From Lachnospiraceae bacterium (GTDB lineage: Bacteria; Bacillota; Clostridia; Lachnospirales; Lachnospiraceae): a stretch of DNA of 64,000 bases. The notes under the pieces were generated by a model. That model made no database searches, was not told the origin of the DNA, and saw only the letters and a program-made list of their open reading frames with translations. Within the stretch, counting starts at the first letter, position 1; every line of letters starts with the position of its first letter. Shown here piece after piece: positions 30,605-32,476 of the stretch. The stretch covers positions 62,001 through 126,000 of the forward strand of contig SVEQ01000004.1 in assembly GCA_015057325.1 (NCBI GenBank), given 5' to 3'. A program made the position numbers and the translations under genes.

Positions 30605-31657
30605 ATGCAAAAACTTGTAATTGACAGTAACAACGAGGGACAGCGTCTTAACAAATATCTTGCAAAATATTTAGATGCTGCACCGATGAGTTTCATATAC
30701 AAAATGCTTCGTAAGAAGAACATTAAGCTAAATGGTAGTAAGGCAGATGGTAATGAATTGCTTGCTCAAGATGATTATATTGAAATATACATGGCAGACG
30801 AGACAATTGCGAAGTTTAGAAAGAGTGAATCGTTAGCCGGCGAATCTGTAAGCAAACCAACAATTTCCAACAACAGCAAGGATAACGAACCACTCAAAGA
30901 TATAGAGATTATTTATGAGGATAAAGATATTCTTATACTTAACAAGCCGGTCGGGATTCTTTCTCAAAAGGCAAAAGTAGATGATTACTCGTTAAATGAG
31001 CGAATTGTAGAGTACTACAAACAGCGTGAGGATATTGACGAGATGTTTACACCGTCAGTGTGTAATCGACTTGATAGAAACACAAGCGGAATTATACTTG
31101 CGGGAATGTCGTATCAGGGAACGAGAATACTTTCCAAAATGTTAAAGGACAGAACGTTATCGAAGTATTATCTTACTATTGTCAAAGGCAACATTGAAAA
31201 GCCTGCAACAATTAAGGGTTTTCTTACAAAGAAGGAAACACATAATCAGGTTATCATTTATCCTACCAAGGAAGATGCTAACAAGGCGGGAATTGAGTCT
31301 CCTGCTTATATAGAGACGCGTTATGAACCACTTGAGCATGGCAGTGTTGATGACGGCAGAAGAACTTATGATGTAACTTTACTCAAAGTTGAGCTTATAA
31401 CCGGAAAAACTCATCAGATAAGGGCTCATTTACGCTCTATAGGGCACCCGATTCTTGGAGATGGCAAGTACGGACATAAGGATATCAACGCATACATGCG
31501 TAAGGAGCTTAACTTAAAGCATCAGTTACTTCATGCATATGAAATTCAGTTTCCTAAGGATGTGGAGGCGCTTTCGGTTGAACTGTCAGATAAAGAGTTT
31601 AAAGCTGAACTAACAGAAGAGTTTTCTAAAATACTACATTCAATTATTGCTGTTTAG
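30605..31657 (+). CDS. RluA-family pseudouridine synthase with S4 domain
   Basis: Isomerises uridines in 23S rRNA (RluC/RluD group). An N-terminal S4 RNA-binding domain (RLNKYLAKYLDAAPMSFIYK) is followed by a ~30-residue linker and the catalytic domain. The active aspartate is in CNRLDRNTSG, which has Asn in place of the common His, and KTHQIRAHL is present. The last codons and the TAG stop (31655-31657) lie inside the left terminal repeat of the 831-bp element, so the natural C-terminus may have been replaced by element sequence. Confidence 0.92.
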   Translation: MQKLVIDSNNEGQRLNKYLAKYLDAAPMSFIYKMLRKKNIKLNGSKADGNELLAQDDYIEIYMADETIAKFRKSESLAGESVSKPTISNNSKDNEPLKDIEIIYEDKDILILNKPVGILSQKAKVDDYSLNERIVEYYKQREDIDEMFTPSVCNRLDRNTSGIILAGMSYQGTRILSKMLKDRTLSKYYLTIVKGNIEKPATIKGFLTKKETHNQVIIYPTKEDANKAGIESPAYIETRYEPLEHGSVDDGRRTYDVTLLKVELITGKTHQIRAHLRSIGHPILGDGKYGHKDINAYMRKELNLKHQLLHAYEIQFPKDVEALSVELSDKEFKAELTEEFSKILHSIIAV

Positions 31658-31672
31658 TTACATTTTAAAACG
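31646..31672 (+). repeat. Left terminal inverted repeat of the 831-bp element
   Basis: 27 bp starting ATTGCTGTTTAGTTAC and ending AAAACG, the exact reverse complement of 32450-32476. It contains the stop codon of the upstream pseudouridine synthase gene. The sub-motif GTTTAGTTACATTTT (31652-31666) recurs with 13 of 15 matches at 32194-32208. Confidence 0.9.
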
Positions 31673-31683
31673 GACGCATAACA

Positions 31684-32023
31684 AATTGTCGATATATTAC
31701 ATTCTGTGTGACGAGACATACGGACATAAGAGTTTCTAGGTATTACGAAAATACTTTTGCCATACTTCCACCTTCGTAGCATGAGCTACTCGGTGTCACG
31801 GCATTCGCCGTATATGTATGTACGCATTATAATACATAAGCGAGCAAACTCGCATGTATTATATGCGACATACATGCATGGCTCATTACTACGCGCAATT
31901 CGACATCCTGTCTCAATGGAACATGCCGAACATCCATGTTCGGCAACCGCTGTATATTCAACGTAATACCAAGAAACTCTAATATCCTCCTGAATGTCAC
32001 CCAGAATGTAATACACAACAATT
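31684..32023 (-). other. 340-nt imperfect hairpin in the left half of the element
   Basis: Nested stems: 31684-31689/32018-32023; 31696-31712/31996-32012 (16 of 17 paired); 31729-31746/31963-31980 (17 of 18); 31775-31786/31881-31893; and a central 31814-31844/31849-31875 hairpin closed by a CAAA loop. Side hairpins are at 31798-31811 and 31924-31945 (10-bp perfect arms). Several non-Watson-Crick positions (31692/32016, 31694/32014, 31725/31984) are A-C on the + strand but G-U on the - strand, so the fold is better as minus-strand RNA. Single-sequence inference only. Confidence 0.6.
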
Positions 32024-32212
32024 CTTTATGCTGCCGTTCGTTTAGTAATGTATATAACAATCTTTGCGACACAGGATATTGCACACACAGATAATCTCAC
32101 GCTGTTTCGTTATGTACGAAAGTGCATCAAATCAGCCAACACGTAACGTTTGCGACAATGCGAGCCGTTCACGGCGAGTCGCGTCTGGCGTCCGTTTAGG
32201 GACATTTTCTTG

Positions 32213-32451
32213 CGAAACTTCATAGCGTATATCATGCGTCGAATTATGTTGCAGTATCCATGAGCAGGTACTTCTAAGCCGCCGGCACTTCCAATGACAC
32301 TTAACGAACTACGTGAGTTGTAGTGTCATGCACCTACTTGGTAACGAACACGAAGTGTGAGTTTAGTACCGCTGCGAGCGCAGAGTAGCGAAAGCGTGCC
32401 TGCGTTGGAACTGCAATCATATGAGACGCATTAAAGACATATAAAGTTTCG
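32213..32451 (-). other. 239-nt imperfect hairpin in the right half of the element
   Basis: Nested stems: 32213-32220/32444-32451; 32234-32240/32425-32431; 32249-32260/32406-32416 with one bulge; 32267-32272/32365-32370; and an inner hairpin 32294-32301/32322-32329. Small hairpins at 32348-32358 and 32372-32383 fill the loops. The bases at 32450-32451 also belong to the terminal repeat, so the two pairings compete. Confidence 0.55.
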
Positions 32452-32476
32452 TTTTAAAATGTAACTAAACAGCAAT
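32450..32476 (-). repeat. Right terminal inverted repeat of the 831-bp element
   Basis: Perfect 27-bp reverse complement of 31646-31672. It ends 18 bp before the recU ATG, with the recU SD (AAGGGAG) immediately outside, so any promoter driving recU must lie in the element or upstream of it. Confidence 0.9.

Follow-up and report, generated by a model that had tools for sequence, protein, structure and literature searches.

The 831-bp element at positions 31646..32476 of the window (the whole 64,000-nt stretch that was analysed; host genome G000, 3.05 Mb on 24 contigs) is very likely a composite, REPIN-like, non-autonomous mobile element, in which two hairpin units are set head to head and mobilised in trans. 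Its relatives are dispersed and share its ends, units that stand alone lie between target duplications at preferred sites, the cores of the units covary, and paired cores are ordered head to head.

The element is bounded by exact inverted repeats of 27 bp, located by repeat comparison at 31646..31672 (+ strand, carrying the shared end TTGCTGTTTAGTTACATTTT) and 32450..32476 (− strand), and the ends that can be compared across copies are TTGCTG...CAGCAA (31647-32475). Size and termini are those given in the initial annotation, and its account of a CpG-dense, foldable sequence lacking a credible ORF was borne out. Internal ORFs of at least 60 aa numbered three (69, 76 and 85 aa) and overlapped one another; CpG observed/expected was 1.54 in the element vs 0.91 in the window, and the CpG count was matched or exceeded in 2 of 1264 windows of 831 bp (50-bp steps), both of which overlap the element. 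Predicted folding energies were −300.7 kcal/mol (+ strand) and −333.5 kcal/mol (− strand), with z-scores of −11.6 and −11.9, and 0 of 20 shuffled sequences folded as well on either strand. The element had been taken for either a large structured RNA or a long non-autonomous transposable element, and each half of this proved partly right: relatives are dispersed and multicopy, with target duplications beside their solo forms, and the cores carry strong compensatory change, but the fold comprises two hairpin units with opposite cores and is not one large RNA. Because the cores are opposed, no single transcript reads both in sense. The statement that no known class was recognisable holds for the right core, which is without Rfam match, and fails for the left one, a homologue of the Rfam family TwoAYGGAY.

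The left hairpin, H1, was delimited by eye at 31647..32062, with arms at approximately 31647-31749 and 31962-32062 and a core that is read on the − strand. This core (31845..31994, −) is, judged by its sequence, homologous to TwoAYGGAY (RF01731) but interrupted, and was matched with 28.5 bits (E 0.041), below the cut-off of 43. By eye, the first AUGGAU hairpin is complete; in the second, the outer stem was lost through an insertion or replacement in the H1 apex (31752..31888, approximate limits), which is also present in the copy at G000:C7:40224-40630; the score is low because this apex insertion removed part of the second loop hairpin. H1 is followed by the orphan 3′ arm of a hairpin H2 (32063..32137, +), the 5′ arm of which is missing here and present in the sibling copy C12a, and by a central spacer (32138..32185) with a small GCGAGCCG...CGGCGAGTCGC hairpin. 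Since a lone H2 arm stands between H1 and the spacer with H3, the window copy was judged by eye to be a recombinant. The right hairpin, H3 (32186..32475, +), contains a structured core at 32248..32428 (+; 106.2 bits with covariance model R1, L001:2109-2289). Inserted in this core is an accessory hairpin (32290..32343, +), which also occurs in H3 copies of genomes G003 and G013 and resembles a duplicate of the apical hairpin.

Copies elsewhere, for which a BLASTN check had been proposed in the initial annotation, were readily found: the host genome yielded 132 matches to the element, representing dozens of dispersed relatives. Terminal motifs were matched with at most 3 mismatches at 41 places, a few of them internal or chance, vs 1 for a reversed control pattern. 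Many copies are located at the end of a contig, which means that the assembly breaks at the repeat itself. Both ends were recovered for 17 copies; these measured 385-829 bp and were modular by eye, combining the three hairpins H1, H2 and H3 variously as H1-spacer-H2, H1-spacer-H3, or H1 nested in the H2 stem and followed by H3. Copies are located between many different genes. After 4 internal ends had been dropped from 57 rows, 17 of the 53 outer ends in the host genome were positioned 0-4 nt past a stop codon and 15 were positioned 18-31 nt ahead of a start codon. Phage and plasmid records gave no match to the 831-bp element. The composite copy at L017 (G000:C15:66067-68731) adjoins a cluster of five tRNA genes.

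H3 also stands alone in relatives, forming a unit of about 210 bp that has TAGGYRWTTGCGAAAC as its ends. Direct repeats were detected beside solo H3 in 62 of 98 oriented rows, in which many elements are counted once per strand, vs 0 of 98 mismatched flanks. The target duplications measure about 12 bp, with 10-13 bp in cases of unambiguous edges and 8-15 bp in automatic calls. Insertion sites were evaluated for 62 units, with genes called from simple ORF and Shine-Dalgarno criteria; one genome, G015, contributed a large part of the solo units in the analysis. Of 35 gaps bounded by the end of one gene and the start of another, 32 had the unit near the start codon, whereas uniform placement would give 12.8 (0 of 200000 simulations), and the distance from unit edge to Shine-Dalgarno sequence was 15-19 nt (about 17) for 31 of 38 near edges, with 9 further starts farther away. 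Relative to the near downstream start, 23 units were oriented in sense and 16 in antisense. This site preference could reflect selection against other insertions instead of targeting.

The order of cores was determined for neighbours within 700 bp, using all TwoAYGGAY matches, part of the H3 matches (37, from G000, G003 and G004 and one from G015) and further matches, with a few G000 core positions being approximate and set from the sequence. The order was (−,+) in 31 of 33 pairs, (+,+) in 1, (−,−) in 1 and (+,−) in 0, a count that leaves out a partial second match in L244, also (−,+), and an overlapping weak opposite match in L214. In a (−,+) pair the sense hairpin is the second one, whichever strand is read. 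A convincing target duplication was found at 0 of the 17 host-genome composites, the window copy included, the best case being 7 of 8 bases at C15a, and composites lay about 10 nt closer to the start codon than solo units did, as if no duplication had been made. For 11 of the 17 composites the two flanks were joined and compared with the sister species G004, in which no spanning match, and hence no empty site, was found; G004 has both flanks of 10 of these 11 as separate matches that agree over most of 1 kb, and neither flank of C12b. Recent movement of the composite itself is therefore without support. At C18, G004 carries H2 plus H3 and G000 carries H1 nested in H2 plus H3 between the same flanks, so that the cores differ at one orthologous site. 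The flanks of C16 and C7c (G000:C16:49684-50345 and G000:C7:205851-206490) adjoin different elements in G004 (compared with L306, L310, L315 and L324), which suggests that the elements serve as points of chromosomal rearrangement. The left flank of C12a meets no recognised element end in G004.

These composites bear on the first alternative, a single-strand DNA element of the REPIN kind, in which hairpins of single-stranded DNA would be recognised by an HUH (Y1) transposase, with the inverted pair as the mobile unit. The head-to-head order resembles that of REPINs as given in the abstract of PMC3116915, the composites are without convincing target duplication, and the excess of G-T over A-C in the core (see below) also fits a single DNA strand. 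The units are, however, about ten times as long as a REP. Solo H3 units moreover bear target duplications of about 12 bp, which Y1 enzymes are not known to make, and this alternative was considered unlikely.

Intact TwoAYGGAY cores were present in sibling copies of H1 (− strand) and H2 (+ strand), which matched RF01731 at 25 places in the host genome with 82.3-106.4 bits (cut-off 43); in alignments, sibling cores have two AYGGAY-type loop hairpins within an outer stem. The Rfam search that had been suggested as a check gave nothing when the whole window was searched at curated cut-offs, and the family emerged via these intact siblings. TwoAYGGAY was detected in 10 of 24 genomes of the same genus and in 0 of 16 genomes of other families. 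In a sample of the phylum it was found in 51 of 398 genomes at E ≤ 0.001, 34 above the cut-off, and in 41 of 267 genera. An alignment of 24 TwoAYGGAY sequences had 34 consensus pairs, with double changes in 29 of them.

H3 gave no Rfam 15 match at E ≤ 1 in 16 loci or at E ≤ 5 in the window copy, and is a structured core that apparently has not been described. With model R1, built from 16 sequences, and at E ≤ 0.001, at least 897 matches were obtained, distributed over 24 of 24 same-genus genomes (1-83 each, scoring being limited to 85 candidates per genome), with 0 matches in the 16 genomes from other families. TwoAYGGAY and H3 are found side by side in G260, which belongs to another genus of the same family. 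In genome_contigs, 27 stretches fitted a strict H3 pattern, and every record concerned is named Lachnospiraceae, Eubacterium, Eubacteriales or Acetatifactor; viral contigs had no exact match to one strict H3 pattern. Among 92 distinct sequences, 97.1% of cells were paired and double changes occurred in 29 of 34 pairs. The covariation score was 0.467 vs 0.178 for shuffled alignments (0 of 500 reached it) and at most 0.079 for slid ones, the alignment having been fitted to model R1, which favours the score. Core cells comprised 158 G-T vs 6 A-C, with a few columns dominating the count; this excess implies that the + strand folds as a single strand. The outer H3 stems had no overall strand bias (129 G-T vs 130 A-C), with isolated mismatches at 82 vs 50.

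Such cores could also be expressed protein-binding RNAs, TwoAYGGAY binding CsrA via its AYGGAY/GGA loops, so that insertions ahead of Shine-Dalgarno sequences would control the neighbouring genes. The strong covariation of both cores, the strand-specific fold of H3 (158 G-T vs 6 A-C), the position of units beside Shine-Dalgarno sites and the presence of CsrA in the host genome are in keeping with a regulator, as is a published match between the TwoAYGGAY motif and CsrA sites (PMC4333381). A regulator is nevertheless improbable: no orientation is clearly preferred among the units (23 in sense with the near downstream gene, 16 in antisense), and the presence of TwoAYGGAY is not associated with that of CsrA, the motif being found in 5 of the 10 same-genus genomes that have CsrA and in 4 of the 6 that lack it (these 6 being 70-92% complete). 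Promoter-like sites numbered 4 vs 3.9 by chance, and terminator-like sites 2 vs 0.8 (sd 1.0), the same hairpin being read on both strands.

An RNA-copied element resembling a bacterial SINE, the folded core RNA of which would be copied and inserted by a reverse transcriptase, was rated very unlikely. In its favour, the fold is conserved and single-stranded, with G-U pairs and loops of the GNRA type, and the direct repeats are somewhat variable in length (8-15 in the automatic call), but the solo unit is bounded by inverted ends, for which RNA copying has no need.

At the locus of the window copy, the upstream gene encodes an RNA pseudouridine synthase (PF00849; 30605..31657, +), the frame of which ends within the left repeat; its stop codon, TAG at 31655-31657, is supplied by the left end of the element. 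Some other element ends in the host genome are likewise entered by a long open frame. Downstream, recU (PF03838; 32495..33043, +) has its start codon 19 nt past the element. By eye, the right junction of this rluA-recU region is common to G000 and G004, that of G013 has the end of a TwoAYGGAY-type element and that of G015 the end of a solo H3, the junctions of G004, G013 and G015 all being interrupted by contig ends. In 8 genomes the pseudouridine-synthase gene precedes recU without an element (by eye); in the other genomes recU had a different upstream gene, its start was not found, or recU was missing. That these are vertically inherited regulatory intergenic regions which do not move at all, as the presence of both flanks in G004 for 10 of 11 tested composites without an empty site might suggest, has next to no probability, since it is contradicted by the rluA-recU comparison (element-free in 8 genomes, other element types elsewhere) together with the target duplications at solo units, and copies lie between many different genes.

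For the composite mobile element favoured here, the following mechanism is proposed. Each unit combines long stem arms, which vary, with a folded core that is conserved, namely TwoAYGGAY in the left unit (− strand) and H3 in the right one (+ strand). Most likely, the unit ends are the substrate of a putative transposase provided in trans, which makes the duplication of about 12 bp, with transposition preferring, or being tolerated at, AT-rich DNA just ahead of Shine-Dalgarno sites in either orientation. The composite may move, or may have moved, by a route related to that of solo units. The core would then serve the mobilising machinery in recognition or packaging, and is presumably retained because it helps the element to spread, as a recognition structure or as an RNA.

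Among the matches listed for 7 genomes, no facing pair of exact ends (no mismatches allowed) was located 0.7-3 kb apart, an arrangement that could indicate an autonomous partner. A duplication of about 12 bp is a trait of IS4/IS231-type elements. An IS4/IS231-type transposase was tried as a candidate and rejected, since DDE_Tnp_1 (PF01609), the sole family searched, was absent from three of four carrier genomes (G015, G008 and G005) and was matched 5 times in the fourth, G020.

Compared with known systems, the left hairpin core is homologous to the TwoAYGGAY RNA (RF01731), which differs here in being the apex of a fold-back unit in a mobile family, often head to head with a second core. REPINs and REP-BIMEs with their RAYT share the inverted pair of hairpin units with a spacer, the multicopy intergenic distribution and the non-autonomous state (REPIN features as given in abstracts), whereas the units described here are 200-400 bp long with covarying cores, in contrast to REP palindromes of 20-40 bp (GTAG/CGTC tag, cognate Y1-type RAYT), and make target duplications of about 12 bp when solo. 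Bacterial MITEs are likewise non-coding, with inverted ends, high copy number and target duplication, the latter applying to solo units only; they differ in that the element has a conserved core under structural selection, a mostly fixed Shine-Dalgarno distance and, within a limited search, no parent insertion sequence. Correia elements and IS-derived elements are MITEs comparable to it. HEARO, IS605-orfB-I and RAGATH-18 are transposon-associated structured RNAs, and the likeness lies in a structured RNA motif on mobile DNA, whereas no nuclease gene was present inside the element copies examined.

TwoAYGGAY was reported in 2010 as a probable RNA that is neither cis-regulatory nor a riboswitch (PMC2864571), and its loop stability has also been treated in the literature. 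The literature matches listed (titles and abstract beginnings, with few subscription journals) gave no account of mobile TwoAYGGAY or of such insertion targeting; PMC2864571, PMC11701678, PMC11661157, PMC4333381, PMC3116915 and PMC8266576 were consulted in addition. The present analysis provides a physical setting for this RNA motif, which in the literature covered has been without a tested function since 2010, and adds an apparently new structured core with about 900 matches in 24 related genomes. It also raises the question why a mobile element keeps a covarying, strand-specific fold at a fixed distance before Shine-Dalgarno sites. A search of carrier genomes should reveal the enzyme that mobilises it, and the target rule of this enzyme may be new. 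Speculatively, H3 and TwoAYGGAY might be folded cores that can replace each other within a single class of structured mobile elements in Clostridia, with the folded strand being part of the transposition machinery and directing insertion to the edge of the ribosome-binding site. If TwoAYGGAY were indeed a transposition core, the orphan "RNA" would not be a regulator.

Long direct repeats were found beside TwoAYGGAY units at 3 of 43 loci (15 of the same genus, 28 of other genera) vs 0 of 128 controls. At L135, L139 and L148, three TwoAYGGAY units from other genera lie between direct repeats of 14-15 bp (with a mismatch in one case), which hints, suggestively only, at mobility of TwoAYGGAY outside the genus too. 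In some species (L114, L118, L121 and L130) a conserved CGGGYGTGGCG motif precedes the TwoAYGGAY hairpin, and at L118 a further hairpin, perhaps another unit type, lies beyond this motif.
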